Below are positions 3,344-58,801 of a stretch of 64,000 nucleotides of DNA, one piece after another. Below the pieces are notes generated by a model. The model was not told the origin of the DNA. It saw only the letters and a program-made list of their open reading frames with translations, and searched no databases. Each line of letters begins with the position of its first letter. Position 1 is the first letter of the stretch. The stretch is taken from positions 62,001-126,000 of the forward strand of contig NZ_CANMRQ010000003.1 in assembly GCF_947500325.1 (NCBI RefSeq), written 5' to 3'. Both the position numbers and the translations under genes were made by a program. This DNA is from an uncultured Lacinutrix sp. (GTDB lineage: Bacteria; Bacteroidota; Bacteroidia; Flavobacteriales; Flavobacteriaceae).

Positions 3344-3399
3344 TATTTATTTTTTTAACGAAATTACTATATTATAATCATAAACTAACTAAGAAAACG

Positions 3400-6606: not shown

Positions 6607-6693
6607 ACCAATATAAGAGTGGTTTTAATGTATTAACATGTTTTGAAAAGGCTATCAATCTATATACAATTTACAATTTGTAAGAGACTTATA

Positions 6694-41105: not shown

Positions 41106-42308
41106 ATGCTAGACCGCCAACCTCTAAAAAAAGAATTTGTAGCATTAATGGCTGCATTAATGTCTTTAGTTGCTTTATCAATAGATGCTTTACTGCCTGC
41201 TTTACCTGAAATAGGTGCTACTTTAGGCGTTAAAAATCCCGCGAACAACCAATTATTAATCACCATGATCTTTTTAGGTTTAGGTTTTGGTCAATTAATT
41301 TTTGGACCATTATCAGATAGCTTTGGACGTAAATCTATGGTCTACTTTGGTTTTATCATTTTTGTTATTGCTAGTATTATTTGTGTAACCACGAAGAGTT
41401 TTGAAATGATGATTATTGGCCGTGTTTTACAAGGCATTGGATTATCGTCCCCAAGAACTATTGCCATAGCAATGATACGTGATACTTATAGTGGTGATTA
41501 TATGGCAAAAGTATTATCAATTGTTGTCATGTTTTTTATTTTGGTTCCTATAATTGCACCTACTTTTGGACAACTACTTTTAAATGTTTCAGACTGGACA
41601 GCAATTTTTAATAGTAACTTAATTATTGGTTTATTAATTATAATCTGGTTTTGGCAACGACAGCCTGAAACATTGTCTAATAAAAACCGAATCCCTTTTT
41701 CTTTTAAAATTTTTATCACAGGCACTAAGGAGTTTTTTAAATATAAGGCATCTGTTGCATTTACCTTAATCTCTGGATTTATTACAGGTTCTTTTATGGT
41801 GTATTTAAGTACCTCTCAACAAATATTTCAAGAGCAATATGGTTTAGGAGAATTATTTCCATACTTCTTTGCTAGTACAGCAATCGCTGTTGGTGCTTCT
41901 ACATTTTTAAATAGTCGTTTAGTAGTAAAATATGGTTCTATGCGTATTGCTTATATAGCTACAATAGCCTATGTTGTAATATCTTTACTTTACATTCTAT
42001 TATACTTTAATGGTAACCCAAGTATCTATATACTTATTAGCTTTTTTATGGTTCAGTTTTTTGCTGTGGGTTTACTTTTTGGAAATCTTCGTGCCTTAGC
42101 TATGGAACCGCTAGGTCATATTGCTGGTATTGGTGCTGCTATTAATGGCTTCATATCTACAATAATGGCTGTACCCATTGCTAATTATATTGGTAGTTTT
42201 GTAAAAACCTCTGTATTACCTTTATTTATTGGCTTTTCTTTATTTGGAGTATTATCCTTTGTTGTTTTTTTATATGTAAAACAAAAACGCACTTTAGTTA
42301 AAGCCTAA
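41106..42308 (+). CDS. MFS multidrug transporter (Bcr/CflA subfamily)
   Basis: From ATG 41106 the protein is 400 residues with twelve transmembrane helices. Motif A of the major facilitator family is clear (GFGQLIFGPLSDSFGRKSMV), and the subfamily signature SIDALLPALPEIGATLG opens helix 1. RVLQGIGLSSPRTIAIAMIRD is the motif-C-like segment of drug:H+ antiporters. It would export small toxic molecules, with specificity unknown. It stands alone, and its stop interlocks with that of the convergent tube gene. Confidence 0.88.
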   Translation: MLDRQPLKKEFVALMAALMSLVALSIDALLPALPEIGATLGVKNPANNQLLITMIFLGLGFGQLIFGPLSDSFGRKSMVYFGFIIFVIASIICVTTKSFEMMIIGRVLQGIGLSSPRTIAIAMIRDTYSGDYMAKVLSIVVMFFILVPIIAPTFGQLLLNVSDWTAIFNSNLIIGLLIIIWFWQRQPETLSNKNRIPFSFKIFITGTKEFFKYKASVAFTLISGFITGSFMVYLSTSQQIFQEQYGLGELFPYFFASTAIAVGASTFLNSRLVVKYGSMRIAYIATIAYVVISLLYILLYFNGNPSIYILISFFMVQFFAVGLLFGNLRALAMEPLGHIAGIGAAINGFISTIMAVPIANYIGSFVKTSVLPLFIGFSLFGVLSFVVFLYVKQKRTLVKA

Positions 42309-42766
42309 TTACCACCATTGCAAATAGTGAGTTTCTCATGAGCAATCTCTAGAGTATCGATAGCAACTTCATTGCCATCAGATTTTAAATCTGTACTGGT
42401 TATTTTTGTCGGCCAAGCATTATCTAATTGCCATTGTATAGTAACAGTACCGTTTTCATCTAATAGCTTAATAATAACAGTTTGTCTCTTAATTGTATTC
42501 ATAGAAATTTGAGCATGCCATTCCCAAAAAGTAGCATCATTTACAAAAACACCTCTTTTCATAGTAATATTACCATACTTTACAATACCTGGCATGTTTT
42601 CTACTGAAAATAAAGCGCTATTATTTTTACGGTATTCTATAATTTGATTTTCTACATCCATTCCAGAAACCTCTTGAAATGCTACATTTTTGAGAGTGTT
42701 TCCAAAATCTACTTCAAATCTAAACTTTGGCATTGGCCAAACAGCATTTTCATTATCTACAGGCAT
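42305..42766 (-). CDS. contractile tail tube protein (T4 gp19-like, eCIS/phage type)
   Basis: This 153-residue protein has the phage T4 gp19 / conserved tail-tube fold (TIGR02241-like pattern): PMPKFRFEVDFGNTLKNVAFQEVSGMDVE at the N-terminus, YRKNNSALFSVENMPGIVKYGNITMKRG, and TIQWQLDNAWPTKITSTDLKSDGNEVAIDTLEIAHEKL at the end. The GNITMKRG strand and the NAWPTK loop are hallmarks of inner-tube subunits that stack in hexameric rings inside a sheath. It follows the sheath gene by 15 nt. No capsid, tape measure, baseplate or spike gene accompanies it. Confidence 0.85.
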   Translation of the reverse strand: MPVDNENAVWPMPKFRFEVDFGNTLKNVAFQEVSGMDVENQIIEYRKNNSALFSVENMPGIVKYGNITMKRGVFVNDATFWEWHAQISMNTIKRQTVIIKLLDENGTVTIQWQLDNAWPTKITSTDLKSDGNEVAIDTLEIAHEKLTICNGGN

Positions 42767-42781
42767 ACTATATTTTTTTAA

Positions 42782-44353
42782 CTAACTTGATTTTGCCATT
42801 TCTTGTTGAAACGTGATAACTATAAATTCTGCTGGGCGTACTACAGCCACTTTTATAGTAACATTCATAAATCCATTTAAAAGGTCTTCAGAAGTCATTG
42901 TTGTACCTAATCCGCAGGCTACAGAAAAGGCATCTGCAGCTGTTGCTCCTTGTAATCCGCCTTCTTTCCATATAGTAGTTAAAAAACTACTTATCATTGC
43001 TTTAACGCCTTCCCAAGTGTTCTTATCATTAGGCTCAAAGACGTAAGCATGTGCGGCAAGTTTACAAGATTGCTCTATAAAAGTCATTGTTCTACGTACT
43101 GGTAAATATTTCCAATCTAAACTATTACCATCTAAAGTTCGTGCACCCCAAATTAAAATCCCTAAGCCATTAAAAAAACGAATGGCATTAATAGACTTAC
43201 CAGATACTGCATCGACATTTAAATCACCTTGTTGAGATTCTGATAACCTAATAGGTAAACTAACAGCTCCAACAATAGAAGTATTTGCTGGTGCTTGCCA
43301 AACACCTTCTTGATTATCTATAGTTGTCATAACACCTGCCATTGCACCACTAGGTGGTAATATATTAGCTTGTGCAAGTACCTGTTTAATAATTGCACTA
43401 TACGTTTTACTCGCATTTAATAAAGCGTTATGCCCTTGGCTAGTAGTTAACGTTTTCTTTTTAATAGTATCAATAATAGTAGCTACAGATGGATTTGGAT
43501 TGTTTTCAGGGCTTAATAACGACGCTAACAAATCAATATTACCTGCAAATAGATTGGTATAATCGATATCTGTATTTTGCATAATGCTTGTTCCAATAAA
43601 TGGATAATATGCCGTACCGTAATCTAAAGCATTACTTCCTGTATTATTTCTAAAAGTCTCAATATCTTTAGTATATAGTATTGGATCTGGAGTATTACCG
43701 CCTATAACATCAAAAATGCTAATAGCCGTTTGCATTTCAGTATTTTGAAGTAACATAGACTGCATTAATGTACCATTATTTTCTATTGACAGTAATGTTG
43801 CTTCTGGACAAATGTACATTGTAGGTTCTGTTTCATTTTTCAATAAAGCTAAACCAGCTTGTAACTCATTTAACTTCACATTTGGATTTACAATCTGTTC
43901 TCCAGCAGTTATAGGTTTTTTGGACGATTCTCCATACGTACCAACCGAAACAATATACGCGTCTCCGCCTCCATTTTCATAAAACAATCTAATACTGTTG
44001 TACAAATAATAAATGGTATTAGGGTCTGGAACGATACTATAATACTTACCATCAATAAGTATATAATTGCCCTTTTCTGGCTGATCCATTTGTTCTACTA
44101 AATAATATTCAGGACTGTATTGCTTTGTTGGACTTGCTGGTGCAGCTGGATCTGGATAACAATATATCGCTTGAAACTCTGCAAATGATGTGATTTTCAT
44201 TGCGACATTAGTATACGACTTCCCTTCAAATAAGGCTTGCGGCGTATACCCAATAAATGCAGGAACAGCTGTTGCCACTGGAACTACAGAATTAGGAAAA
44301 GCATTTGTTTCATTTATATATACACCTGGTGATTTAATATTAGATTCAATCAT
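42782..44353 (-). CDS. contractile tail sheath protein
   Basis: The 523-residue sheath subunit starts with the family motif KSPGVYINET, has a variable middle with a VYIVSVGTYG-like strand and ends with the conserved C-terminal part: VDAVSGKSINAIRFFNGLGILIWGARTLD, the EQSCKLAAHAYVFEPNDKNTW helix and FMNVTIKVAVVRPAEFIVITFQQEM. The C-terminal beta-strand is the arm that links sheath subunits in contractile systems. The pairing with a tube gene matches extracellular contractile injection systems (Afp/PVC-like) and myophage tails, but only these two structural genes are present. Confidence 0.88.
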   Translation of the reverse strand: MIESNIKSPGVYINETNAFPNSVVPVATAVPAFIGYTPQALFEGKSYTNVAMKITSFAEFQAIYCYPDPAAPASPTKQYSPEYYLVEQMDQPEKGNYILIDGKYYSIVPDPNTIYYLYNSIRLFYENGGGDAYIVSVGTYGESSKKPITAGEQIVNPNVKLNELQAGLALLKNETEPTMYICPEATLLSIENNGTLMQSMLLQNTEMQTAISIFDVIGGNTPDPILYTKDIETFRNNTGSNALDYGTAYYPFIGTSIMQNTDIDYTNLFAGNIDLLASLLSPENNPNPSVATIIDTIKKKTLTTSQGHNALLNASKTYSAIIKQVLAQANILPPSGAMAGVMTTIDNQEGVWQAPANTSIVGAVSLPIRLSESQQGDLNVDAVSGKSINAIRFFNGLGILIWGARTLDGNSLDWKYLPVRRTMTFIEQSCKLAAHAYVFEPNDKNTWEGVKAMISSFLTTIWKEGGLQGATAADAFSVACGLGTTMTSEDLLNGFMNVTIKVAVVRPAEFIVITFQQEMAKSS

Positions 44354-45273: not shown

Positions 45274-45573
45274 TTAACTAAAGTAAAACAACCATCCATC
45301 CGATAAATCATTCCATTCAGAATTCATATATGCAATGAGCTTTTCTTTATTTTTTCTATTACCTTTTTTAATTTGTTTCTCTCTAACTATAGCTTCATCT
45401 ATTGAATTAAAAGCTTCAAAATAAACTAATTTATCACAGTTGTATTTAGATGTAAACCCTTTATATGTTTTATTTTTATGTTGGTATACTCTTTTTGTTA
45501 GATTAGAAGTAACACCAACATATATCACCGTATTATTTTTATTGGTCATGAAATACACATGAGATTCTTTCAT
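45274..45573 (-). CDS. GIY-YIG nuclease family protein, copy 1
   Basis: The 99-residue protein is a single GIY-YIG domain: VYFMTNKNNTVIYVGVTSNL holds the two GIY/YIG-equivalent strands, and RVYQHK (R28) and the metal-binding Glu in AIVREKQIKK (E65) complete the active site. The C-terminal FxSxWNDLSDGW tail is usual for the short UPF0213-like group. Stand-alone GIY-YIG proteins are candidate DNA nickases or repair nucleases. It is bracketed by palindromes at 45098-45268 and 45611-45725 and is nearly identical to copy 2. Confidence 0.85.
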   Translation of the reverse strand: MKESHVYFMTNKNNTVIYVGVTSNLTKRVYQHKNKTYKGFTSKYNCDKLVYFEAFNSIDEAIVREKQIKKGNRKNKEKLIAYMNSEWNDLSDGWLFYFS

Positions 45574-45941: not shown

Positions 45942-46241
45942 TTAACTAAAGTAAAACAACCATCCATCCGATAAATCATTCCATTCAGAATTCATATCTG
46001 CAATGAGTTTTTCTTTATTTTTTCTATTACCTTTTTTAATTTGTTTCTCTCTAACTATAGCTTCATCTATTGAATTAAAAGCTTCAAAATAAACTAATTT
46101 ATCACAGTTGTATTTAGATGTAAACCCTTTATATGTTTTATTTTTATGTTGGTATACTCTTTTTGTTAGATTAGAAGTAACACCAACATATATCACCGTG
46201 TTATTTTTATTGGTCATGAAATACACATTAGATTCTTTCAT
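45942..46241 (-). CDS. GIY-YIG nuclease family protein, copy 2
   Basis: It is 99 residues and identical to copy 1 except at residue 5 (Asn for His) and residue 82 (Asp for Tyr). The catalytic Arg28 and Glu65 are kept in both, so neither looks like a pseudogene. Having two intact copies argues that the protein is either recently duplicated by recombination between the flanking palindromes or spread by an active process. Function is as for copy 1. Confidence 0.85.
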   Translation of the reverse strand: MKESNVYFMTNKNNTVIYVGVTSNLTKRVYQHKNKTYKGFTSKYNCDKLVYFEAFNSIDEAIVREKQIKKGNRKNKEKLIADMNSEWNDLSDGWLFYFS

Positions 46242-46449: not shown

Positions 46450-47520
46450 TTACTTGTTAAAACTTCCATCATCTACACTTTTAATAAAGTCTATCAAGCC
46501 TTTAAAGAATACTTTCTGGTCATCAAACTGTGATAAATGACTGCCGTTTGGGCATAATAAGAAGTCGCCGTTTTTCACTTCTTCACTAATCCATTTCATA
46601 TGCTCAGGATCCATGGTATCGTGAGTCGCTCCTATAGTTAATGTAGGTACTGTTATTTCTTTAAGTCTGTCTTTTACATCCCAATTTTTAAGTGTCGCAT
46701 CGCCTTTTATACCAAATTCACTTGGGCCTTGCATAGTAACATAAACCTCTGGATTAAGATGTTTAAAGGCTCTATTTATGGGTTCTGGCCATTGGTCTAC
46801 TGGCATTCTAATCACGTGTTCTGTATAGTAGTTTTGAACAATTAAATCTAAGTAACGTGGATTAGCATAATCTTCTTTCTCTTCGTAACTCATAATCTCT
46901 TTAAGTACTTCTGGATCTAGTTTTGGCGCTAATACTTTGTCACTATACTCTTGATATTCTGGTATAGACGCTACCATATTAGAAATGATTAAGCCTTTTA
47001 AGTTCTTTTGGTACTTTAAGGCATATTGCATGCCTAAAATGCCGCCCCAACTTTGTCCATACAAATAGAAATTATCTTTATCTAAACCTAAAGCTATTCT
47101 CACCTGCTCTACTTCTTCTACAAAACGGTCTAAATCCCATAGCGATAAGTCTTTGGGTTGGTCGCTGTAATACGAGCCTAATTGGTCGTAGTAATAGTAT
47201 TCTATATTTTCTTGCGGAAAATAGCCATCAAAACACTCGTAAATCTCATGTGTCATTCCTGGTCCACCATGTAACAACAACACTTTCATGGTTGGATTAT
47301 TACCCACACGTTTGGTCCAAACTTTAAATTCTCCTTTTGGTGTGGTGATTGGTATCATTTTAATACCGCCAAGAAATTGATCTTTATCTTGTGGTTGTAA
47401 GTAGTTTTCTACAGAAGCACTAATTGTTTCTATTTCGTGTTCGTGAGTGTGTTCGTGTTCTTGTTTGCAGCTAAAACTGATTGTTAGTATTAAACTGAGA
47501 ATTAAAATTTTGGTTTTCAT
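46450..47520 (-). CDS. proline iminopeptidase-family alpha/beta hydrolase, lipoprotein
   Basis: This 356-residue lipoprotein has the signal MKTKILILSLILTISFSC (Cys18). A short His-rich stretch (EHEHTHEHE) follows the lipid anchor and could bind metal. The peptidase S33 motifs are the HGGPGMTHE oxyanion loop, GQSWGGILGMQYAL (catalytic Ser), Asp in TIGATHDTMDPEH and His in CPNGSHLSQFDDQ. It would remove N-terminal proline or act on small peptides at the cell surface. It lies 43 nt past the end of the defence operon on the same strand. Confidence 0.82.
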   Translation of the reverse strand: MKTKILILSLILTISFSCKQEHEHTHEHEIETISASVENYLQPQDKDQFLGGIKMIPITTPKGEFKVWTKRVGNNPTMKVLLLHGGPGMTHEIYECFDGYFPQENIEYYYYDQLGSYYSDQPKDLSLWDLDRFVEEVEQVRIALGLDKDNFYLYGQSWGGILGMQYALKYQKNLKGLIISNMVASIPEYQEYSDKVLAPKLDPEVLKEIMSYEEKEDYANPRYLDLIVQNYYTEHVIRMPVDQWPEPINRAFKHLNPEVYVTMQGPSEFGIKGDATLKNWDVKDRLKEITVPTLTIGATHDTMDPEHMKWISEEVKNGDFLLCPNGSHLSQFDDQKVFFKGLIDFIKSVDDGSFNK

Positions 47521-47563
47521 ATTCTGGTAGGATTAGAATATAAAGTTAGGGAAAAACAAGTAA

Positions 47564-48556
47564 TCATTCTTGTAACATTATCCTTCTAGTGAATTCTTTA
47601 AAGCTAACACATCTATTTGGAGGCACAGATGCTGCTATCCAATTTTTACCTCTTCCTTTTTTAATTCCAGGATCTTTTCTTAATGGTTTATTTAATTTAA
47701 CAGGCTCATCCATAAAATAATAAGTATAAACTTTATTGTCTTTATCTAACTTGACACCTCTAATCCACAATTTTATCAATTCTTGATCTTTAGAGAATTT
47801 CGATAACTCAGTACTCGTATTTGTAATTTCATGAGGCTTCATTGTTAGAGTTCCAAGAACTTTAGATAAATAACTAATGCCTTCACCTTCTTCTTGTTTG
47901 GCTTTTCTGGTAAAGTGTGGTGCGAAGTAGAGAGGAATACCAAATGTTTCAAAGCGCCTGTATACTTTATAATTTTTATACCTATCCATTTCTGTAGGAT
48001 CTGAAACATCTTGTATTAATATTTCTTTTTGTTCATTCATATTGTACGTTCTTAATGCGAATTGAGAGAACTCTTTTATTAATAGGATTGCTAGGTGTTT
48101 TCTTGAGGTGTATAAATCAATAATTTCTAACCAACCTAAATAGGTTACCTCTACATTCTCAACTTTTTGTTTGGTTGAGTCTCGCTCTTGTGTGATAAAA
48201 CATAAAATATTTTGTGGACACTCTGGGTTAAAATCTCTTATGTATTGTGTGCGTTGTTCTGTGACTTTGCCTTTTCTAACTTTACATTCTATAATGATGT
48301 GAAACCTATTTGGATAACTTATTTCTATATCTGTGCGGTTTCTATCGCGTTTACGTTCTATTTCAACTTTAATCTTACTAAAGTTGTTTTCTGTATTTTT
48401 TAGTTTTATACCAAGATGTTTTAAAAACGAAAACATAGCTTCTCGCTCACTGCCTAATACAAACGCAAAACCTTTAGATAAAGCGACTTCATTTTTGCCT
48501 AAAAGCGAAAATCGGTTAAGGATAGAATGGTTTTGTCCTGTTTCTTTTATGATCAT
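47564..48556 (-). CDS. PD-(D/E)XK-like nuclease, last gene of the defence operon
   Basis: This 330-residue protein has a PD-(D/E)XK core near its N-terminus: RTDIEISYPN (D76), then FHIIIECKVRKG (E90-x-K92), then Gln in VTEQRTQY (Q101). This matches the restriction-endonuclease fold. The C-terminal 180 residues are unrecognised and could recognise DNA or a partner. It overlaps the HNH gene by 4 nt (ATGA), so it is translated with it. No known Septu or type I RM system is recalled to carry this gene, but relatives may exist. Confidence 0.7.
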   Translation of the reverse strand: MIIKETGQNHSILNRFSLLGKNEVALSKGFAFVLGSEREAMFSFLKHLGIKLKNTENNFSKIKVEIERKRDRNRTDIEISYPNRFHIIIECKVRKGKVTEQRTQYIRDFNPECPQNILCFITQERDSTKQKVENVEVTYLGWLEIIDLYTSRKHLAILLIKEFSQFALRTYNMNEQKEILIQDVSDPTEMDRYKNYKVYRRFETFGIPLYFAPHFTRKAKQEEGEGISYLSKVLGTLTMKPHEITNTSTELSKFSKDQELIKLWIRGVKLDKDNKVYTYYFMDEPVKLNKPLRKDPGIKKGRGKNWIAASVPPNRCVSFKEFTRRIMLQE

Positions 48557-49542
48557 TTTATCAATTTAAGTTGTCTAGCTATATCTTGAGTATATTTAGA
48601 CATTGGCCTTTTACTCAACTCTTCTGGTTTTGAATAATTACCTATTAATAATCTATCAATAATTGTAGCATCAGGGAAAATTTTTGAAAATTCTTTTTCA
48701 AGAATTCTTCTATAAGTTTGAGGGTTTGCTTTAGCTTTTAAAATAAGTTCTTCTGCTACATCTTTATGATTATCGTAAACTGAATCTATTTGAAAAAGCT
48801 CATTGTGATTTTCGAGTAAATCTACATCTCCAGAATTTGACTCTAAATTTACTTTTAGACGATGAAGCTCAAACTTTACCCAATAAGCTAATACAGATTT
48901 ATCCTCAATTTTAAAATTAAACAAATCAAGTTCGTCTGATGTTGTGTATAATTCAAATAAAGCTTCTTTATTTCCTTTTGCTAAGTTACAGTTTGCACAA
49001 GTTGGATATAAGTTAAAGAAAGTAGTGCATAAAAAAGGATATTTGGATTTTGGATAATAATGATCTAATTGTAGCTTTGCCAAAATCTTCTTAACTCTAC
49101 GTTTTTTTTTATCATAAAACCTTTTCTCAATTGCTAACGTAGATTGAGCATTACAATACACACAAGATTTTAAATTAGAACCTGAAAGATATTCGGGAAA
49201 CTCTTTTTCTCGTAAATCTTCATAACGCATAGCTTTGACAATCTCCTCATGAAACGTATATTTAGAATTTCCGAACTTCTTATTTATTTTACTAACTGCT
49301 AAAACTTTATTAAACTCTATAATGAAATCTTTCATTTCATCAGGATTTGCATTTAATATATTCTCATAATTATCAATAATTTTTCCTATATACAATTTGT
49401 AGTTATGGCTTCTTTTTCGCTTGAGCTTTTTTAATCGTTCAATAGGCAACTCAAAAGAACTCTTTCGTGTTTTTACAAATAGATTACTGTTGAATTTTTT
49501 CACAGTGTATGCCAACTCATCCGTTACTTTAATCCGCCTCAT
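48553..49542 (-). CDS. HNH endonuclease with zinc ribbon (PtuB-like)
   Basis: This 329-residue protein has a central HNH module. A CVYC pair (127, 130) comes first, then LDHYYPKSKYPF (catalytic H161), FFNLYPTCANCNLAKGNK (N177, C182 and C185). The two CxxC pairs form the zinc ribbon that frames the ββα-Me active site. The N-terminal 110 residues and the C-terminal 130 are helical. Such HNH proteins pair with SMC-like ATPases in Septu and in retron effector modules. It overlaps the ATPase gene and the next nuclease gene by 4 nt each. Confidence 0.8.
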   Translation of the reverse strand: MRRIKVTDELAYTVKKFNSNLFVKTRKSSFELPIERLKKLKRKRSHNYKLYIGKIIDNYENILNANPDEMKDFIIEFNKVLAVSKINKKFGNSKYTFHEEIVKAMRYEDLREKEFPEYLSGSNLKSCVYCNAQSTLAIEKRFYDKKKRRVKKILAKLQLDHYYPKSKYPFLCTTFFNLYPTCANCNLAKGNKEALFELYTTSDELDLFNFKIEDKSVLAYWVKFELHRLKVNLESNSGDVDLLENHNELFQIDSVYDNHKDVAEELILKAKANPQTYRRILEKEFSKIFPDATIIDRLLIGNYSKPEELSKRPMSKYTQDIARQLKLIK

Positions 49543-51476
49543 TTATTTAACTTTGCTAGTTGAACCTCCATCTCTCTGATTTTTTGAGCCAAAAGCTCCT
49601 TGTCCTTAAATAAAAACTTTTTATTATGCAAAGACTGAATCCTTTCTTGAATTAATGGTTCATCTATTATATCTATAACTTTTTGTGCTCTTGCAGGATT
49701 CCAATCTTTTAAATGTTTAATATTTTCTTCTGATTCTTCTTTCTTTTCATTGAAGGTTAAAAAGTTTATTAAATCAGTAATTAACTCCTGTGCAAACTCG
49801 CCCATAAAACCATCTTCTAAAAAGAAACTATGAGCTAGTAAATCGTGTACATTTGCACCAAATGATTTTACAGGTTTCTCTTCCTGATTAAGAATTATAT
49901 TTTTCCCTTCTTTTTTATTAAGGTAGATAATTTGATTATTAGGTAAATCAGATAAGGTAATTGGGTCGTGTGTAGTAAATATAATCTGAATTTCAGATCG
50001 CAAATCTTTAAAAAAATAAGGCAAAAATGTAGTTATAGATTTAACAAAAGATTTTCTCCATTTTGGATGAAATCCCATATCTGCTTCATCTAGCAACAAA
50101 ACGTAGAAATCTTTTTTTGAAATACTATTTATATCTAAATACTGTTTTTTGAAGTAATAATAAATTCTTGAATAAAAGTTTAATAAAGCAGTTTCACCTG
50201 AGCTTAAATCTCTTTCAGATGGCTCATAGCTTATTAAACCTTCAATCCTTTCTCTTTTACTAAATATTACTTCGCCTTTTTCTTTAATTCCACCATAGTA
50301 TTGATCGACCTTGTTTAAAAAGGAAGTATGATACTCAATTAATTGAATAGCCTGATCATTATTTAAATAAATTGATTTTGAATTCCAATCAAAATTTCTT
50401 GTATCTCTATCATTTTCAGCTTCTAATCCATCAATTACATCAAACAAATAATTAATCATTTGTTTTGTCTCGTCAACAGGTAGTAAAGCTATTTTTTGAG
50501 AGCCAACTTGAAAATAATGCAACTCTAATAACTTAAAAAGAGCTTCTTTTGGATCTAAGTCATTTATTAATTCTGTATATTCTTTATTCGTTATTTCAAG
50601 ATGACCTTCTTGCAAATACTGATTTTTTTTCTCCATTTGAATTATAAACAAGCTCAGTAAATCTTCTAACAAGTAATTTTTTAAAAGATTTTTTTGAAGA
50701 ATCACATGGCTATAACCTTTAGGCCTATTTTTGTTTATCTCTCTTCCTTCGTCACTAATTAATTTATATAATGTATGAATTGCATATTGCAAATCAAATG
50801 GAGTATTATGAAAATTTATTCTATCCTTATCGTAATCGATATCTAATTTATACCTAATAAAAGAAAACCTTGCTCTTTCAAATTTAGGAAAATCAAATAC
50901 TGTTTGTAATTGTATGGCGTATTTTGAAATTTGAAACTCAAATATTCGGATAGAATTTTTTGCCTTCAACCAGCGTGATAAATTCACATCCTCATTCGCA
51001 ACAAATTTATTTTTAGAAGCTTCAATGTCTTCTTCCAGAATTGTGTCAAAACTTAAATCAACACCATCTAAAGGCTCTTTAAAATCTAAATATGGTGAAT
51101 AATAAAGTGTTTCAATTAGATTTATATCAAGTTTCCTTTCAGTAAAATCATAACCAGCTCCCAAAGAAGGACATAATGTGTAAGTAATATTATTATCTTC
51201 TACTATGAGTATATAATCACTCCCATACCCTTTTCCTTTTAAAAAACTAATGATATATCTTAATAAAGTTGTTTTACCAGAACCATTTTTTCCAACAATT
51301 GCCGATACTAAACTCAAATTAATTTGGTCATAAAGATTTTCAACCAAACCATGATTTTCTACTCTTGTTATTCCACGAATATCTGTAAAATCATATATAA
51401 ATTTACCACCAAAATTTATAGTTTGAGGCTCTTCAAAAAGGAAATTATCTTCAATATATATTGCAGCTAACCTCAT
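49539..51476 (-). CDS. AAA/ABC-type ATPase with SMC-like signature (PtuA-like)
   Basis: The 645-residue ATPase has Walker A GKNGSGKT at 62-69, a long helical insert (about 110-420), the ABC signature LSSGE at 424-428, Walker B VLLLDEADMGFHP at 459-471 and the H-loop TTHDP at 501-505. The layout is that of the SMC/OLD-like ATPases found in defence, with the C-terminal part (510-645) possibly an effector or partner-binding domain. There is no TOPRIM. It is read after hsdS with a 4-nt overlap and before the HNH gene with a 4-nt overlap, the order ATPase then HNH being that of Septu. Confidence 0.8.
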   Translation of the reverse strand: MRLAAIYIEDNFLFEEPQTINFGGKFIYDFTDIRGITRVENHGLVENLYDQINLSLVSAIVGKNGSGKTTLLRYIISFLKGKGYGSDYILIVEDNNITYTLCPSLGAGYDFTERKLDINLIETLYYSPYLDFKEPLDGVDLSFDTILEEDIEASKNKFVANEDVNLSRWLKAKNSIRIFEFQISKYAIQLQTVFDFPKFERARFSFIRYKLDIDYDKDRINFHNTPFDLQYAIHTLYKLISDEGREINKNRPKGYSHVILQKNLLKNYLLEDLLSLFIIQMEKKNQYLQEGHLEITNKEYTELINDLDPKEALFKLLELHYFQVGSQKIALLPVDETKQMINYLFDVIDGLEAENDRDTRNFDWNSKSIYLNNDQAIQLIEYHTSFLNKVDQYYGGIKEKGEVIFSKRERIEGLISYEPSERDLSSGETALLNFYSRIYYYFKKQYLDINSISKKDFYVLLLDEADMGFHPKWRKSFVKSITTFLPYFFKDLRSEIQIIFTTHDPITLSDLPNNQIIYLNKKEGKNIILNQEEKPVKSFGANVHDLLAHSFFLEDGFMGEFAQELITDLINFLTFNEKKEESEENIKHLKDWNPARAQKVIDIIDEPLIQERIQSLHNKKFLFKDKELLAQKIREMEVQLAKLNK

Positions 51477-52795
51477 ACCTCAACATATTTTGCATTCTCC
51501 TCCGCAACCATACCCAACTCTTCTTTAGCCTCACCAACAGTAACCTGCCCATTCATAAGCATAGGCAACAACCAATCGCGTAACTCGGCGAGTTTTTGGT
51601 TTTCTTCTAAGTTTAACGCGACTTTATCATTGTATTGACAAAAAATAGAAGTTGCTTTATTAATTAATTCATCATTCAAAGGAAGCGCAATTTTCAATTC
51701 CATAATATCGTTATGAGATATTGAGGGATAAGCAGAAACAGATCCTACTGCAATTTGTTGAAGCCTTGCACTCACATAATCTTGTGATAAAATTTGAAAT
51801 ATAAAATCATTAGTAATCTTAGAATCATTACTTCTAATCTGAGCAAAACCAGTAGATGCAATTAAATTTTCAATAGGTCTTTTTATAATTCCGTAATGTA
51901 ATTGATTAGGACGAACTGTAGAATATAAAATATCGTTTTTAGACACAATTCTTTGTGCTCTACTTGGAATTTTATCTCTATCAAAATCTAATTTCTGAAA
52001 AGAATCGATAACATTTTCAGTTAAACTACTTGTATCTAAATAATTGATTTTATCATATCGACTTTCTTTTGTTATATTCCATTTATTACAATCTGCAAAA
52101 CCGGAAACACTCCTAACTTCCCAACCCTCCGGAATCTCGCGTTTCAATGCCTCATTATAAACCATTTTACCACCAGACGCTTTATAAGGTTTACCATTAG
52201 CATCAGGAAAATCAAACTGTACAAACCAATAATCGTAAATGGTTTTTGCAATCTCTTCTAACTCTTGGTTTATTTTGTTGTTGACTTCTATTTTGGCATC
52301 TAAATCGGATAAGACTTTAACAAGAAAATCTTGCTGTTTTCTGGAAGGAATAGGAATTGGGCAATTCCCAAACGAATTAGCATTCAAATTCCCTCGAGTA
52401 CTTCCCAAGGAAAAATTTTCAACCCATTGTTTATAATGCTTTGTAATTGTATAATATCTTAAATACTTTGGATTCACTTTTTCAGGATCTAAAGAAAACT
52501 TAATCAAGAAGCCAGCAAAAGCTAATTCACCATTTTTTATTTCGTGAAAGTAACTTTTACCTGTTGAATTTCCTGTTCTTGCAAAAACTATATCACCTTC
52601 CTCTAATAGATACTTTTCAATTTGAGAATCACTAACACTTTTTTTATCTGAATCTAATAATTTTCCATCTTCTGAAATATCAGTGATTCTTAAATAACGT
52701 ATTTTAGTTTCATCAAAATCTTCAGCAGATGCAGGAATACCATAAATTCCGCATTTATTTGGAAAGCATAATTCTTTTAAGGCCTTACTTTTCAT
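51473..52795 (-). CDS. hsdS: type I restriction-modification specificity subunit HsdS
   Basis: This 440-residue protein contains two target-recognition domains joined by conserved helices. The first ends in the motif SRKQQDFLVKVLSDLDAKIEVNNKINQELEEIAKTIYDYWFVQFDFPDANGKPY, the second in LNDELINKATSIFCQYNDKVALNLEENQKLAELRDWLLPMLMNGQVTVGEAKE. The repeated helix spacers are the typical HsdS dimer framework. The target sequence cannot be read. It overlaps hsdM by 11 nt and the downstream ATPase gene by 4 nt, so the added genes are coupled to the RM operon. Confidence 0.9.
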   Translation of the reverse strand: MKSKALKELCFPNKCGIYGIPASAEDFDETKIRYLRITDISEDGKLLDSDKKSVSDSQIEKYLLEEGDIVFARTGNSTGKSYFHEIKNGELAFAGFLIKFSLDPEKVNPKYLRYYTITKHYKQWVENFSLGSTRGNLNANSFGNCPIPIPSRKQQDFLVKVLSDLDAKIEVNNKINQELEEIAKTIYDYWFVQFDFPDANGKPYKASGGKMVYNEALKREIPEGWEVRSVSGFADCNKWNITKESRYDKINYLDTSSLTENVIDSFQKLDFDRDKIPSRAQRIVSKNDILYSTVRPNQLHYGIIKRPIENLIASTGFAQIRSNDSKITNDFIFQILSQDYVSARLQQIAVGSVSAYPSISHNDIMELKIALPLNDELINKATSIFCQYNDKVALNLEENQKLAELRDWLLPMLMNGQVTVGEAKEELGMVAEENAKYVEV

Positions 52796-54416
52796 AATTC
52801 AAATTTTTCAAATTATCTTGAATTTCTTTTTCCAACCTGCCGCTTTCAGCAAATAACTTTTCCAAATTGGTTCCAAAACCTTTAAGTTTTGTATTAAACT
52901 CTTCCGCAGTAATATCAACATATTCAATCTTGACTTCAAAATATTGCCCTGCACTCAACGAATAGTTTTTGGCTTCAATGTCTTCGTAGCTTACCACTAC
53001 AGAAAAATCCTCTTGTGTTTCTTTAGCATTAAAAACATCTATGATTTGTTGTTCTTCAGCATCGCTTAACAAGGTCTTTTGGTTGCCATTACTGTCTTTA
53101 ACTTTGCTTCCTAAATTAGAGGCATCTACCAACACAACATCTTTGGTATTGGTCTTATCTAAAAACAAAATACTCACATTGGTTCCTGTGGTTGCAAAAA
53201 TGTTGGATGGCATACTTACTACGCCTGCTAGCATTTTGCTTTCTACGAGCTTTTTTCTAATCTTTTTATCAATACCAGATTGAGCTGTAATAAAACCTGT
53301 GGGTACGACAATAGCGGCTTTACCTTTTGCTGTTAAACTGTGCATGATATGCTGAATAAACAATAGATAAATGGCCATAGAATCCTTTTTCTTGGCTGGC
53401 ACTTTAGGAATGCCAGCAAAAAATCGCTCCTTATTGGCTTTGCTGTCTAAATCTGCACTGTAATCGCTAAAATCTAACTTAAATGGTGGATTGGATACGA
53501 TATAATCAAACTGTTCTAATTGCCCATCATCTTGTTTATGATACGGACTTAAAATGGTATTACCTTGTATAATGTTTTGTATAGAATGTACTAGATTATT
53601 TAAAATCAAGTTTAAACGCAACAAGGCAGATGACTTCTGCGAAATGTCTTGTGAGTAAATGGTACATTTATCTTCACCTATGGCATGTGCTAGATTCATT
53701 AGTAAGGTTCCAGAACCAGCACTAGGATCGTAACAGGTTACGTTGTTTACATTATCATCAGTTACTAAACATGCAGCCATAATTTTGGCTACTGCATGCG
53801 GCGTGAAATACTCTGCATATTTTCCGCCACTATTAGAATTGTAATCTTTTATTAAATATTCAAAAATGGTTGCAAAAAAATCGAACTTCTGCGTGAAGAT
53901 ATGTTCAAAACTAAAATTAACGAGTTTATTTACAATGGCTTTGCAAAAGGCGTCTTTATTATCTGTGACGTATTTACTTAAGTTTTCAAACAACACTACT
54001 TTTTCGCCTCCTTGTGTGAGCACCGAAAAAATATCAATATTGTCTTTCGCGACATTTAGTAAGGTCTGATCAAAAATGTCTGCAAACTTATCCTTGTTTT
54101 GTTGCACAAATAATCGTGATAATAGATTTTTAGGCGCAATACGTGCTGTATTCTCACTAATCTGCATCGTGAGTAACTCTAAATCATCATCTGAATATTT
54201 CTTAAGTGCTTTATCAAAATCATCTGCTTTGGCTAAAGTAGGTTCTAATTGTTTTAACTCATAAACATATTTGTCGTTTAAGAATTTATATAAAAATACT
54301 TGGGTGATGATTTTAAATTCGTTTCCATCATTTCCTAAACCATAATTGGCACAGACGCTTTTTAAATTGTCTATGAGTTTCTTGGTTTCCGCTTCAAATT
54401 GTACTGTAGTTGTCAT
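52785..54416 (-). CDS. hsdM: type I restriction-modification methyltransferase HsdM
   Basis: This 543-residue N6-adenine methyltransferase has motif I DPSAGSGTLL at 230-239 and catalytic motif IV NPPF at 309-312, with an N-terminal HsdM_N domain and a C-terminal helical arm. It methylates the host target to block cutting by HsdR and also sits in the complex. It is 7 nt after hsdR and overlaps hsdS by 11 nt. Confidence 0.92.
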   Translation of the reverse strand: MTTTVQFEAETKKLIDNLKSVCANYGLGNDGNEFKIITQVFLYKFLNDKYVYELKQLEPTLAKADDFDKALKKYSDDDLELLTMQISENTARIAPKNLLSRLFVQQNKDKFADIFDQTLLNVAKDNIDIFSVLTQGGEKVVLFENLSKYVTDNKDAFCKAIVNKLVNFSFEHIFTQKFDFFATIFEYLIKDYNSNSGGKYAEYFTPHAVAKIMAACLVTDDNVNNVTCYDPSAGSGTLLMNLAHAIGEDKCTIYSQDISQKSSALLRLNLILNNLVHSIQNIIQGNTILSPYHKQDDGQLEQFDYIVSNPPFKLDFSDYSADLDSKANKERFFAGIPKVPAKKKDSMAIYLLFIQHIMHSLTAKGKAAIVVPTGFITAQSGIDKKIRKKLVESKMLAGVVSMPSNIFATTGTNVSILFLDKTNTKDVVLVDASNLGSKVKDSNGNQKTLLSDAEEQQIIDVFNAKETQEDFSVVVSYEDIEAKNYSLSAGQYFEVKIEYVDITAEEFNTKLKGFGTNLEKLFAESGRLEKEIQDNLKNLNYEK

Positions 54417-54423
54417 ATATTAG

Positions 54424-57400
54424 TTAAGCAACGTTGCCGTTGTATTCGTTCATGTATTCTTTTACTATGATGCTATTAATGCGTTTTACGTCTCTTGCCG
54501 TGACATCAATTTTATGTTCACGCTTAAATTGATTCACAACCAAACGCATGACCATTTTTTCTACATAGCTCTCATTTTCTAGTAATTTTGAGTTCTGTAA
54601 AATTTCGGTATCAATAGCATCTTTTAATCCTTTAAGTGCTTCAAAGAGTTTACGTTCGGTATCAGTTAAAGGATCTGTTTCCATTAAGCGTTTATGAATA
54701 CGAGCGTATTTAGCATCGTAATCGTATTTAGCTCTTAATAGTTGATTTTCACGTTCTAGTTTTTTGGCTTTATCGTAAATGGCGTTTAAGGCTTTAATAT
54801 TAGCTTCCATATCTTCTTTAGACACTTCGCTTAAGTTTTTCTTTTTAAATAAACGTTCCAGTTCTTCTTTTAAGGATACAAAAATAGGATCTTTTTGATC
54901 GAAGTTGCCTGCAAGCATTTCACGTGTTCTACCCAAAGTATTTTTTAGCTCATCGGCCAAAATCATTTCTTCTTCCTTCACTTTGGTAAAGGCAAAAATG
55001 ACATCTTCTAACGCTGTATTTAGAATATTGTCGGTTTCAACATTATTCTCTAAAGCAATTCTGGTATTAATAAGTCCTAATCTATCGTTAGTTAATCGTG
55101 ATAAAATGGTGAGCTTTCTAAAATCTAACTTTTCAAGTAATTCAAAATTACCTGATAAGCGAATCAGATTATAGAGGTCTTTGGAATTGTTGAGTGCTTT
55201 GGCAATTTTACGAATCTCTGTACGATCATTTATTTCTGAAATTTGATCTCCGAAAATTGTTGCATTGTCTGTGTCGAATCTAAAAAGAATATCTTTTATT
55301 TCCTCGATTTCTTCCTGAATCTCTTGAGGTGTTTTAAAGAGATTGGTATAATGTTGCATTTCGTCACCAAGTTCAGACTGCAGCTCGTTAAAATAATCTT
55401 GATTGGTTTTATCAAACTCTTTCTGAATATCTGCAAAGTCTACTACATAACCATACTTATGCATTTTGTAAGTTCTGTTAACTCTGGTTAAAGTCTGTAA
55501 TAAGTTATGAGACTTTATCTTTCTCCCAATGTAAAGTTTCTTTAATCGTTTGGCATCAAAACCAGTCAGTAACATATTGTAAACGAAAAGTAAGTCTAGC
55601 TTACCAGCTTTAAAATCACTTACCCAATCACGACGGTCTTGTTTAGTACCAATATCATGTAAAATGACTTGTGCAGTTTTTACTTTACTTTCAGTTCTAT
55701 TCTTGTCTCCATATGATGCTGATGGTTCAGCAGCTTGATCTAAAACCGCATTGGTTTGTTCAGTATATGTGTTCTGAAAGATTTCATACATCATTTTGGC
55801 TTGCTCTGAAGAATCGCAAACTACCATACCACCAATGCTATTGTCGTTCATGGAAATACGAGCTTGTTCCATATCCTTTACGATATAATCTAGCATAGGT
55901 TCTACAAAACGATGATCTGCAAACAATTTCTTCTTTTCAATATTACCTTGTAATACTTTGATGCTTTCCAAAGCTTCTTGTAGAACTAACTTGTAATTGG
56001 TTTCAATCTCTTCACGAATTAAACGTAACGTATAACCATCTTTAATCGATAGATTGTAGTAATATTTATGAATGTAGTCACCAAATAAGCTTCTTGAATT
56101 ATATTCCGAGCCTAATAATGGTGTTCCTGTTAAACCGATCTTTATAGAATGCTTATCTGCCAATTCTAGATTTGCTAAAAAGCTTCCTTTTGGATTATAA
56201 CTACGATGCACCTCATCCAAAAAGAAAATACGTTGTACACTTAAATTGTAATCGTTGTTTTTAATAACATCAGGATCATCTTTAAACTTTTGAATATTCA
56301 CAACTGTTATTTCGGCCTTGCCTGAACTGTTATGAATAACTTCAGTCGATTTAATATCTTTACTGAATTCTTCTCGACTATTGACTTTATGAACTACCAA
56401 ACCTCTAGCATTAAATTCTCTAGCCGCTTGGGTTAATAAATCCAACCGATCTACAATGAAGTAGAACTTTGGAATGATATTTTTCTTTTGGTAATAATCT
56501 GTCAAGTGTTTAACATTAAAAAATGCCAAAGCTGTTTTTCCAGAGCCTTGTGTATGCCATATGATGCCTTTTTTTACATCATTCTCTAGTTTATTCTCAA
56601 TCGCCTTAGTCGCGAACAATTGCGGATAGCGCATCACATGTTTCTCTAATCCTTTTTCTTCTTCAACATATGCAAAGGCATATCGCAAAATAAATTTTAA
56701 ACGCTCTCTTTGAAAAATTGAGGTTGTAATAGAATTTGTTGCTGTTTTCGGATTCTTATTTGATTGATACTCTTTGTTAGTTTTAATACTTAATAAATTG
56801 GTATCTTTTAGCACAAAGGTTTCCGTTTCATCAGAAATCGGTTGAAGTAGTTTTTCTAAATCAAAGGTTTCTTCCTCCCTAAAGAAATTGAATATTGGTT
56901 TTTTGTAATTGGTAGTGCTGTAAAAGGCACCTTCTAACATTTGTGTATCTTCATCACTATACTTCATGTTATTAGAAAACACCATGAGTTGCGTGATGTT
57001 AATGAACTTTCGGAACTTTATGTTTTGGAAGCGACGTTGCATTCTATTATGTTCGTCTTTAACTCCATTACGATTATTTGGTTTTTTGACTTCTATAAAA
57101 ACTAACGGCATTCCATTGATGAGCAGAATAATATCAGGTCTAAAACTTTCATCGTCTTTCTGATAGGTCAATTCCGTAACAACATGGAATGAGTTATTAT
57201 CAAAATTTTCAAAATCAATGAGTTTTGTTCCTGACTGATCAATTAATCTTTTGTAAAACGCACGACCTAGATCTTCATTTTCTAGTAACAACGAAACATC
57301 ATCAAATACTTTTTGAACATCATTATCTAATAGTCCTGGATTAATTTTCTGGATTTGCTTATCAAAAATACCTCGAAATATATTCGTGCTTTCGTCCCAT

Positions 57401-57492
57401 GAGTTATCCTTCAATGATAGGTATATGTAACCTAATTGAATTAAATGGAGTATAGAAGGTATTTTGACTCTTGAGTCTTCGTTAAATATCAT
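54424..57492 (-). CDS. hsdR: type I restriction enzyme HsdR (endonuclease and translocase subunit)
   Basis: The 1022-residue subunit has an N-terminal PD-(D/E)XK nuclease (D120 in FRPDIILL, E134-V-K136 in FIEVKKP) and an SF2 helicase/translocase with Walker A TQGSGKT (314-320) and DEVH (426-429), plus motif III-like IGLTGTPLLGS and the C-terminal helicase half with QTLTRVNRTYK. A long helical C-terminal region ties it to HsdM. It leads the operon, and its intact motifs indicate a working nuclease. The ATG at 57490-57492 is well placed; no -7 box was recognised in the 307-nt gap upstream. Confidence 0.92.
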   Translation of the reverse strand: MIFNEDSRVKIPSILHLIQLGYIYLSLKDNSWDESTNIFRGIFDKQIQKINPGLLDNDVQKVFDDVSLLLENEDLGRAFYKRLIDQSGTKLIDFENFDNNSFHVVTELTYQKDDESFRPDIILLINGMPLVFIEVKKPNNRNGVKDEHNRMQRRFQNIKFRKFINITQLMVFSNNMKYSDEDTQMLEGAFYSTTNYKKPIFNFFREEETFDLEKLLQPISDETETFVLKDTNLLSIKTNKEYQSNKNPKTATNSITTSIFQRERLKFILRYAFAYVEEEKGLEKHVMRYPQLFATKAIENKLENDVKKGIIWHTQGSGKTALAFFNVKHLTDYYQKKNIIPKFYFIVDRLDLLTQAAREFNARGLVVHKVNSREEFSKDIKSTEVIHNSSGKAEITVVNIQKFKDDPDVIKNNDYNLSVQRIFFLDEVHRSYNPKGSFLANLELADKHSIKIGLTGTPLLGSEYNSRSLFGDYIHKYYYNLSIKDGYTLRLIREEIETNYKLVLQEALESIKVLQGNIEKKKLFADHRFVEPMLDYIVKDMEQARISMNDNSIGGMVVCDSSEQAKMMYEIFQNTYTEQTNAVLDQAAEPSASYGDKNRTESKVKTAQVILHDIGTKQDRRDWVSDFKAGKLDLLFVYNMLLTGFDAKRLKKLYIGRKIKSHNLLQTLTRVNRTYKMHKYGYVVDFADIQKEFDKTNQDYFNELQSELGDEMQHYTNLFKTPQEIQEEIEEIKDILFRFDTDNATIFGDQISEINDRTEIRKIAKALNNSKDLYNLIRLSGNFELLEKLDFRKLTILSRLTNDRLGLINTRIALENNVETDNILNTALEDVIFAFTKVKEEEMILADELKNTLGRTREMLAGNFDQKDPIFVSLKEELERLFKKKNLSEVSKEDMEANIKALNAIYDKAKKLERENQLLRAKYDYDAKYARIHKRLMETDPLTDTERKLFEALKGLKDAIDTEILQNSKLLENESYVEKMVMRLVVNQFKREHKIDVTARDVKRINSIIVKEYMNEYNGNVA

Positions 57493-57620
57493 GTATTATA
57501 TTTAGCAAATCATATTTTTGTAAATTCAAAAAAGGTAGAGTTTAAATATAACACCTTTATTAAAACTAGTTGTTGTAATACGTCGAAAAGTTTTGGTATT
57601 TTTTTGAGTTTTTGGTAGTA

Positions 57621-57713
57621 TTATGAGGTTACTCACGCATACTATTTCATTAAATTCGGAGTTCATAAATGCTACACGTGCCATGTCGCTAAAAAAGCTC
57701 CTCGCAATCACGT
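57621..57713. repeat. degenerate copy of the palindrome from the GIY-YIG region
   Basis: The segment resembles the right half of the 45762-45936 element (ACTCACGCATACTATT, ATTCGGAGTTCATAAATGC, then CTCCTCGCAATCACGT) with several changes. It is the main content of the 307-nt gap between hsdR and msrB. No gene is supported in that gap. Confidence 0.6.
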
Positions 57714-57799
57714 AAGCATTATACCGTTGTAATGTATCCCATAAAATTACGACAAAGCATAAAAGCATATACTAATTTAACAAAGAAAGGAACTATAGT

Positions 57800-58264
57800 A
57801 TGCTTACTTGGAGAAATGTGATTAATTTCACAGTAAAAGGAAACCCAAAGCCTGACAGAACAGTCGAAAAAACGGAAGTCGAATGGAGAGCACTACTTAC
57901 TCCAGAACAATTTAGAATTACCAGACAGAAAGGAACAGAAGCTGCACATAGCGGAGCACTTTGTAGTATTTATGATCAAGGACAGTACAATTGCGTATGT
58001 TGTAACACCGCTTTGTTTGATTCTACCATAAAATTTAGCTCTGGTACTGGTTGGCCTAGTTTTACACAACCTATTAAACCCAATGCTATAAAGTATATAA
58101 AAGATACTGCATTTGGTATGGTTCGCGTAGAGGTATTATGCAATACTTGCGAGGCACATTTAGGACATGTATTTCCCGATGGTCCAGAACCTAGTGGTTT
58201 ACGTTATTGTATTAATTCTGAATCTATGCGCTTAGCAAAAAAGGAGAACACAAATGACAACTAA
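57800..58264 (+). CDS. msrB: peptide-methionine (R)-S-oxide reductase MsrB
   Basis: The 154-residue enzyme reduces methionine-R-sulfoxide in proteins. Zinc-binding CxxC pairs are CVCC and CNTCEAHLGH, the substrate motif is SSGTGWPSF and the catalytic Cys lies in GLRYCINSESM near the C-terminus (RxCxNS). It lacks a signal peptide, so it works in the cytoplasm. It starts with a good ribosome site (GAAAGGA, about 10 nt upstream) and overlaps msrA by 11 nt. Confidence 0.92.
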   Translation: MLTWRNVINFTVKGNPKPDRTVEKTEVEWRALLTPEQFRITRQKGTEAAHSGALCSIYDQGQYNCVCCNTALFDSTIKFSSGTGWPSFTQPIKPNAIKYIKDTAFGMVRVEVLCNTCEAHLGHVFPDGPEPSGLRYCINSESMRLAKKENTNDN

Positions 58265-58793
58265 AAATTTACAATTAGCCACTTTAGGTAGTGGCTGTTT
58301 TTGGTGTACAGAAGCTGTATTCCAGGAAGTAAAAGGTGTTGAAAAAGTAGTCTCTGGTTATTCTGGCGGCAATGTTCCAGGACATCCAACCTATCGTGAA
58401 ATTTGTTCTGGATTAACAGGGCATGCCGAAGTAATACAAATTACGTTTGATGCAAATGTGATTTCTTATGAAGAGTTGCTTATTATCTTCATGACAACAC
58501 ACGACCCAACGACTTTAAACCGTCAAGGTGCAGATCGTGGTACACAATACCGTTCTGTTATTTTTTATCATGACGATAAACAAAAAGAAATTGCAGAAGT
58601 GGTAACTAAAGCAGTGGCTGTATACTATGATGATCCTGTTGTAACAGAGATAAGCGCGTTAACTGTTTTTTATGAAGCAGAAACAGCCCATCAAGATTAC
58701 TACAAGAATAATCAAGGACAAGGCTATTGCAGTTTTGTAATTACACCAAAATTAACAAAGCTGAGACAACTACATGCTGAAAAATTAAAATAA
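58254..58793 (+). CDS. msrA: peptide-methionine (S)-S-oxide reductase MsrA
   Basis: This 179-residue enzyme reduces methionine-S-sulfoxide. The active-site signature GSGCFWCTEAVFQ has the catalytic Cys, and GYSGGNVPG, GHAEVIQI, THDPTTLNRQGADRGTQYRS and YYKNNQGQGYCSFV (likely resolving Cys near the end) complete the canonical set. It overlaps msrB by 11 nt, so MsrB and MsrA are co-translated. A palindromic repeat then separates it from the thioredoxin-like gene. Confidence 0.93.
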   Translation: MTTKNLQLATLGSGCFWCTEAVFQEVKGVEKVVSGYSGGNVPGHPTYREICSGLTGHAEVIQITFDANVISYEELLIIFMTTHDPTTLNRQGADRGTQYRSVIFYHDDKQKEIAEVVTKAVAVYYDDPVVTEISALTVFYEAETAHQDYYKNNQGQGYCSFVITPKLTKLRQLHAEKLK

Positions 58794-58801
58794 CTTAACA
58801 C

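Follow-up and report, generated by a model that had tools for sequence, protein, structure and literature searches.

We analyzed a 64,000-nucleotide stretch of DNA (the window) from an uncultured Lacinutrix species of the Flavobacteriaceae and examined a group of six adjacent genes predicted to act in defense against phages. The open reading frame (ORF) listing of the window shows six open ORFs between positions 47564 and 57492, all of which lie on the minus strand and begin with ATG. In the direction of transcription, the genes are hsdR, hsdM, and hsdS, followed by those for an ABC-type ATPase, an HNH nuclease, and a PD-(D/E)XK nuclease (Table 1). A gap of 7 nucleotides separates hsdR from hsdM, hsdM and hsdS overlap by 11 nucleotides, and each of the three further junctions is a 4-nucleotide overlap. 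This layout matches to the base the unidirectional six-gene operon described in an initial annotation of the window; the gene families named there likewise hold in PADLOC and Pfam scans and in a check of motifs. The tight 4-nucleotide overlaps suggest co-translation, and the six genes likely constitute one transcript. Scans for promoters and terminators were no richer than those of shuffled sequences (52 vs 55.9 and 4 vs 4.3, respectively) and thus did not locate the start and end of the transcript. The order hsdR-hsdM-hsdS-ATPase-HNH was found again in 12 other loci, some of which have intervening genes and one of which (L051) has split genes; because it recurs, the five-gene order is not due to chance. 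(L and G numbers designate loci and genomes, respectively, that were compared.)

Table 1 Positions of the six genes and of flanking features in the window.
Feature	Position	Strand	Basis
hsdR, type I restriction subunit, 1022 amino acids	54424..57492	-	ORF; REase_I, HSDR_N, SWI2_SNF2 matches; motifs
hsdM, type I N6-adenine methyltransferase, 543 amino acids	52785..54416	-	PDLC03033, E = 1.5e-276, residues 4-542
hsdS, specificity subunit, 440 amino acids	51473..52795	-	Specificity_I, Methylase_S
ABC-type ATPase, PDC-M62A (PtuA-like), 645 amino acids	49539..51476	-	PDLC04735, E = 9.3e-61, residues 1-645
HNH nuclease with two CxxC, PDC-M62B (PtuB-like), 329 amino acids	48553..49542	-	PDLC04743, E = 2.6e-43, residues 1-327
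PD-(D/E)XK nuclease, PDDEXK_4 family, 330 amino acids	47564..48556	-	PF14281
Segment missing at same site in congener G003 (466 bp between flanking alignments)	47411..57742	.	Alignment to L206
Alpha/beta-hydrolase flank gene, 43 nucleotides beyond operon	46450..47520	-	Pfam scan; taken as chromosomal flank, outside system
Presumed msrB-like and msrA-like genes, other flank	57800..58793	+	Flank conserved in G002 and G003

The first three genes are assigned by their profiles and motifs to an ordinary type I restriction-modification (RM) enzyme: HsdR, HsdM, and HsdS are encoded in one operon and the catalytic motifs are present. Profile scans (PADLOC, Pfam, and NCBIfam) revealed SWI2_SNF2, HSDR_N, and T1R_D3-like domains in HsdR, whose match to TIGR00348 fell under the cut-off of that model, as well as N6_Mtase in HsdM and Methylase_S in HsdS. 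HsdR contains RPDI...FIEVKK, GSGKT, and DEVH, and HsdM contains DPSAGSG and NPPF. The significance assigned to the sequence motifs of the six proteins is general background.

The ATPase-HNH pair that follows is identified by profile matching as PDC-M62, a catalogued PADLOC candidate related to the PtuAB proteins of Septu. The ATPase matches AAA_21 and PDC-M62A, whereas the HNH protein matches PDC-M62B; the genes are adjacent, and both PDC profiles are matched over their full length. The Pfam HNH model reached only E = 0.0043 on the HNH protein, which is under its cut-off. The motifs GKNGSGKT, LSSGE, LLLDEAD, and TTHDP are found in the ATPase, and CVYC, LDHYYPKS, and NLYPTCANCN are found in the HNH protein. 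Residues C127, C130, D160, H161, N177, C182, C185, and K189 are invariant across an alignment of 26 M62B sequences. Membership in Septu itself was considered and rejected, since the PtuA and PtuB models of PADLOC score far below those for M62. The best PtuA model covers just residues 459–591 of the ATPase (E = 2.2e-15), compared with 9.3e-61 for PDC-M62A, and the best PtuB model on the HNH protein gave 5.6e-7, compared with 2.6e-43 for PDC-M62B. The M62 models also top the PADLOC tallies over all 22 M62A and 26 M62B members. When a profile of the 22 M62A sequences was compared with the PDB, PtuA of retron Ec78 and other PtuA chains emerged as the best matches, followed by OLD, ABC-F proteins, and AriA. 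The sole match for a profile of the 26 M62B sequences was weak (E = 0.015); it is a TIGR02646-family chain (9n69_F) in an entry that also contains a PtuA-like AAA ATPase. These results agree with the initial proposal that the ATPase followed by HNH is Septu-like. The ATPase had been described as SMC-like, which is loose in that SMC_N fell under its cut-off and PtuA is closer; its assignment as an ABC-type ATPase stands. M62AB would most likely work like Septu, yet PADLOC files PDC-M62 beside Septu rather than within it.

The HNH gene accompanies the ATPase gene in all 35 ATPase-bearing loci among the 57 bacterial-genome loci examined. M62B is present in at least 19 of 397 genomes of the family, a count obtained with one query (E ≤ 1e-8) that missed the pairs of L108 and L109, which were found by profile. 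Some copies of M62 may be decaying: the M62B ORF starts 233 nucleotides beyond the ATPase in the viral contigs L161–L163, and hsdR, hsdS, and M62B are each broken into two ORFs in L051.

The last protein has a single Pfam match above cut-off, PDDEXK_4 (PF14281; E = 1.1e-7), a weak PADLOC match to PDC-S26 (E = 0.0032), and no match in NCBIfam. Its PD-(D/E)XK motif reads RTDIEI...IIIECK, and D76...E90-C-K92 are invariant in three homologues. No credible match was found among PDB sequences, and searches of viral contigs, plasmids, and phages revealed no relatives. In the family sample, the nuclease occurs in 2 of 397 genomes including that of the window; each copy directly follows an M62 pair, and the RM operons concerned are of one subtype. 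The class sample yielded 5 of 295 genomes, comprising the window, G135 (51%), and three others whose matches are weaker or partial. G135 was the only genome of its family with a match (1 of 12), and the window was the only one in the phylum sample (1 of 114); the class, family, and phylum samples overlap. The relative in G135 follows an Mrr-type restriction gene, and no M62 was found in the 19-kb stretch examined.

The second copy in the family belongs to L128 (from G410, the only genome of another genus), where the nuclease gene lies 10 nucleotides behind M62B in the same order as in the window, with one additional gene between hsdS and M62A. The two nucleases are 78% identical; the corresponding values are 66% for HsdM, 35–37% for M62A, and 24–30% for M62B (in these and later ranges, multiple and pairwise alignments differ by a few points). 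A sharp DNA match in L128 hinted at recent transfer of the nuclease gene, which was rejected because the two copies share just 24% of 71 fourfold sites, compared with 39% in hsdM and 41% in hsdR. The saturation of silent sites at 78% protein identity points to an old nuclease gene whose protein sequence is strongly constrained. The M62A proteins of the window and L128 fall within one starred five-row set of the M62A tree, and the other members of this set (L010, L137, and L141) are encoded without the nuclease. A three-gene unit that has suffered losses or a nuclease prone to joining restriction operons would both fit, and the data cannot choose between them. The initial annotation took absence of the ATPase-HNH-nuclease trio from close relatives with the same RM genes as evidence against it: L010, L047, L051, and L132 have the RM genes and M62 pair without the nuclease, whereas the trio recurs once, in L128. 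Falling into a catalogued subtype, which the annotation also took as evidence against its view, applies to the ATPase-HNH pair (PDC-M62); the recurrence of the trio in L128 and the same placement of both nuclease copies in the family favor the annotation. Searches of the open-licence PMC literature under the Pfam accession or short name of PDDEXK_4 returned nothing, and an M62 pair together with a PDDEXK_4 gene as one tail was not found there.

The relation between the added genes and the RM operon was surveyed in the 397 genomes of the family with hsdM as the only query (E ≤ 1e-150). This RM subtype is present in 24 genomes at 26 loci, including the window; the 25 other operons include some that are ended by contig edges (e.g., L117 and L118). 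One homologue search gave 25 non-self places, 11 of which were examined at length. In 8 of the 25 operons, hsdS is followed by M62AB, directly in five and after one gene in three; only one of these eight pairs, that of L128, is followed by the nuclease. McrBC is found in five operons, two of which have M62 as well. The idea that McrBC is a special partner of M62 was rejected, inasmuch as McrBC also occurs in RM operons that lack M62 (L110, L112, and L117). Further contents of the slot, in which not all cargo was scanned, include Avs2-like, PDC-M33A, TIR-like, and Schlafen-AlbA proteins and another PDDEXK_4. The region 3' of hsdS looks like a cargo slot, and the M62 module appears to move in and out of this favored position.

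Other features of these operons were observed as well. The gap between hsdR and hsdM resembles a second cargo slot (L010, positions 6078–7067; also L108, L109, L112, L113, and L115–L118). Eight of the 25 operons contain a relative of a RhuM/Fic-type gene, which is clearly located in the hsdR-hsdM gap in six of them, precedes hsdM at a contig end in L117, and lies elsewhere in L118. The same pair of genes encoding proteins of 525 and 897 amino acids is found behind two very different M62 pairs (L010, 12933–17197; L047, 12877–17144), and the L010 copies match ZacA/ZacB weakly and contain a PLD-like domain.

If the six genes formed one system, the added genes should diverge together with the RM genes. 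One-sided Mantel tests across 13 loci with both RM and M62AB revealed correlated identities for HsdR and HsdM (r = 0.98) and for the ATPase and HNH proteins (r = 0.50, p = 0.0004). No co-divergence was detectable in the same loci between HsdM and either the ATPase (r = 0.10, p = 0.24) or the HNH protein (r = 0.12, p = 0.13); the comparison covers these two added genes and not the third. The absence of correlation between HsdM and HsdS (r = -0.02) is as expected, because specificity domains are exchanged. For the split genes (hsdR of L051 and hsdM of L132), the best fragment was taken. Exchange of the module is exemplified by L132, which compared with the window shows 96% identity in HsdR and 97% in HsdM (best fragment), but 29–35% in M62A and 23–28% in M62B. 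Conversely, L047 and L048, two loci from one genus, have near-sister M62AB pairs behind hsdS genes that belong to separate type I RM families. The M62A tree, which has 39 rows and was built by a quick method without bootstrap, omits split, partial, and near-copy ATPases and, like the Mantel set, mixes loci from RM searches and M62 searches. The label for location in this RM operon requires 11 changes on the tree, and starred branches force at least nine of them; its clustering does not exceed that of shuffled labels, which average 11.0 changes and reach as low a number in 312 of 500 cases. M62AB is also found in IMG/VR contigs, which are probably prophages; the three genes to each side of it gave no hsd or nuclease match. 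The hypothesis that the whole operon is one co-evolved system was rejected because no co-divergence between HsdM and the pair was detectable. The initial annotation had joined all six genes in one system, which is not supported by these results or by the viral copies with no RM gene among the neighbors examined; its suggestion that the added genes provide a second layer of defense remains plausible.

The operon occupies a variable chromosomal site. Positions 46450–47410 and 57743–58798 of the window align with positions 2711–3671 and 4138–5189 of L206, so that the congener G003 has 466 bp where the window has 10.3 kb. In G002, the same site is filled by a different 13-kb stretch. The hydrolase gene on one flank is present in 10 of 13 genomes of the genus, and the gene on the other flank that we take to be msrB-like in 4 of 13; both counts include the window's own genome and were obtained at E ≤ 1e-60, which is strict for a protein of 154 amino acids such as the latter. 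Two near-identical ORFs lie on the minus strand in a repeated stretch beyond the hydrolase gene (45274–45573 and 45942–46241), the second of which was identified by the scan as GIY-YIG; similar short repeats are also found upstream of hsdR in L051. Farther out (42305–44353, minus strand), a contractile-tail tube gene (PF06841) adjoins a tail-sheath gene (PF17482/PF04984), beside which an MFS (major facilitator superfamily) transporter gene lies on the opposite strand.

Several known systems resemble parts of the operon. PDC-M62 shares with the window two genes in the order ATPase then HNH and full-length matches of both proteins; the added third nuclease gene of the window is the sole difference. 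The PDC class is said to stem from a guilt-by-embedding search, and M62 is not named in the excerpted text of that study (PMC12988326). Septu and the PtuAB effector of type I-A retrons share with the pair the gene order, the combination of ABC-ATPase and HNH, the Walker and HNH motifs, and the best PDB profile matches; they differ in that PtuA similarity is confined to part of M62A and PtuB models are weak on M62B. Unlike a retron, none of the six genes in the window encodes a reverse transcriptase (PADLOC and Pfam scans). In the B. cereus group, an excerpted account lists 244 Septu duplicates, 203 with PDC-M62 and 41 with PDC-M01 (PMC11811056). Septu EcB88, which depends on its Walker and HNH motifs, is described in an excerpt of PMC13096335 as cleaving tRNA-Tyr, and PtuAB of retron-Eco7 leads to degradation of tRNA-Tyr and abortive infection (PMC11555353). 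A table excerpted from a review gives phage genome degradation as the outcome and 6:2 as the stoichiometry of the PtuA-PtuB complex (PMC12948488).

EcoprrI-PrrC likewise has a nuclease as cargo within a type I RM operon, with a known trigger. PrrC combines its ATPase and anticodon nuclease in one polypeptide, whereas the window encodes two proteins, an ATPase and a separate HNH, which speaks against membership. No PrrC-type match was found for the six proteins in the complete Pfam list or among the PADLOC and NCBIfam matches listed (up to 25 per protein), scans that involved no direct comparison with a PrrC model. PARIS combines AriA with a Toprim protein, AriB; the AriA model scored 4.8e-15 on the ATPase, compared with 9.3e-61 for PDC-M62A, and no Toprim domain was found in the six proteins (complete Pfam lists, E up to 0.1). 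The RptR-RM-DarTG2 (RRDM) island also has defense genes adjoining hsdS; its cargo is a toxin-antitoxin pair between hsdS and hsdR, whereas hsdR comes first in the window (RptR was not searched for). In excerpt, the RptR study terms the hsdS neighborhood a potential recombination hotspot (PMC12255303). The RM enzyme, the M62 pair, and the habit of defense genes to reside beside hsdS are thus already known.

We consider it probable that the operon is a chromosomal defense island of separate modules, in which an RM enzyme is joined by a Septu-like pair and an extra nuclease that occupy the position behind hsdS as swappable cargo. The RM enzyme would cut unmodified phage DNA first. M62A would hold M62B inactive until infection and then release or activate it, upon which M62B would cut tRNA or DNA and thereby cause abortive infection. 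The PD-(D/E)XK enzyme would probably add further cleavage of foreign DNA. Several observations weigh against this model. Its defense function and modular action are predicted from sequence, and the structure model of M62B is poor (mean predicted local distance difference test score, 49.5; predicted template modeling score, 0.26), which leaves the PtuB-like fold to be argued from sequence profiles only. In some viral contigs, a related ATPase is not accompanied by an HNH match (L183 and L186, close to a locus end; L188–L191, weak matches). Thirteen loci are too few for the Mantel test to exclude a weak correlation. When loci in a type I RM operon of any kind are set against those in none, the M62A tree shows weak clustering: 10 changes are needed, compared with an average of 12.9 in shuffles, 31 of 500 of which went as low. 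The repeated tie to this RM type could signal function rather than a hotspot alone, and both copies of the nuclease in the family (2 of 397 genomes, window included) lie behind an M62 pair.

This last observation bears on a model in which M62A, M62B, and the PD-(D/E)XK enzyme form one three-gene, two-nuclease variant of Septu that lies behind RM genes by habit only. The nuclease gene directly follows M62B in the window (4-nucleotide overlap) and in L128, its product is strongly constrained, and the M62A proteins of the two loci share the five-row set; we nonetheless regard the model as unlikely, inasmuch as the three other members of that set lack the nuclease, the relative in G135 resides beside an Mrr-type gene, the M62B proteins of the two trio loci have diverged widely, and seven of the eight M62 pairs in the hsdM survey do without it. 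Somewhat less likely still is that M62AB guards the RM enzyme, remaining silent while it works and firing when a phage anti-restriction protein blocks it. Excerpted accounts provide precedents in PrrC, a tRNA nuclease that is encoded within a type I RM operon and stays latent until T4 Stp releases it (PMC3874165), and in PARIS, which senses the anti-restriction protein Ocr (PMC12948488). Consistent with a guard, M62AB is repeatedly sited behind hsdS and M62A is a profile relative of AriA (PDB 8ux9 and 8v45). However, the best PtuA models equal AriA in PADLOC score and PtuA chains outscore it in the PDB; in viral contigs, the examined neighbors of M62AB include no RM gene; and very different pairs follow near-identical RM enzymes, as in L132, which renders a conserved contact with HsdM or HsdR unlikely. 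We hold it improbable that M62AB and the nuclease represent a three-gene, two-nuclease Septu-type module that type I RM operons recruit time and again because its ATPase senses blocked or exhausted restriction; such a module would be a guard in the manner of PrrC or PARIS with a PtuAB-type engine, and the PD-(D/E)XK enzyme would finish the phage DNA. Even less credence is given to mere clustering, in which the modules would have a hotspot and possibly a promoter in common without ever acting together against an infection. The widely varying slot contents and the lower GC content of the M62 stretch (about 27–30%, compared with about 32–35% for hsdR and hsdM) fit such clustering, whereas the 4-nucleotide overlaps suggest co-translation and the occurrence of M62 in 8 of 25 slots seems more than a random pick of cargo, an impression that carries no formal test.

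Although the pair itself is catalogued, its behavior here is informative: a single type I RM lineage retains the R and M genes as the module that follows hsdS is exchanged, as seen in a relative with HsdM 97% identical (best fragment) and M62A 29–35% identical. The PD-(D/E)XK partner, which is rare and strongly constrained, is a candidate accessory effector. The 3' end of hsdS offers a natural laboratory in which to examine whether a restriction enzyme and an abortive module act together.

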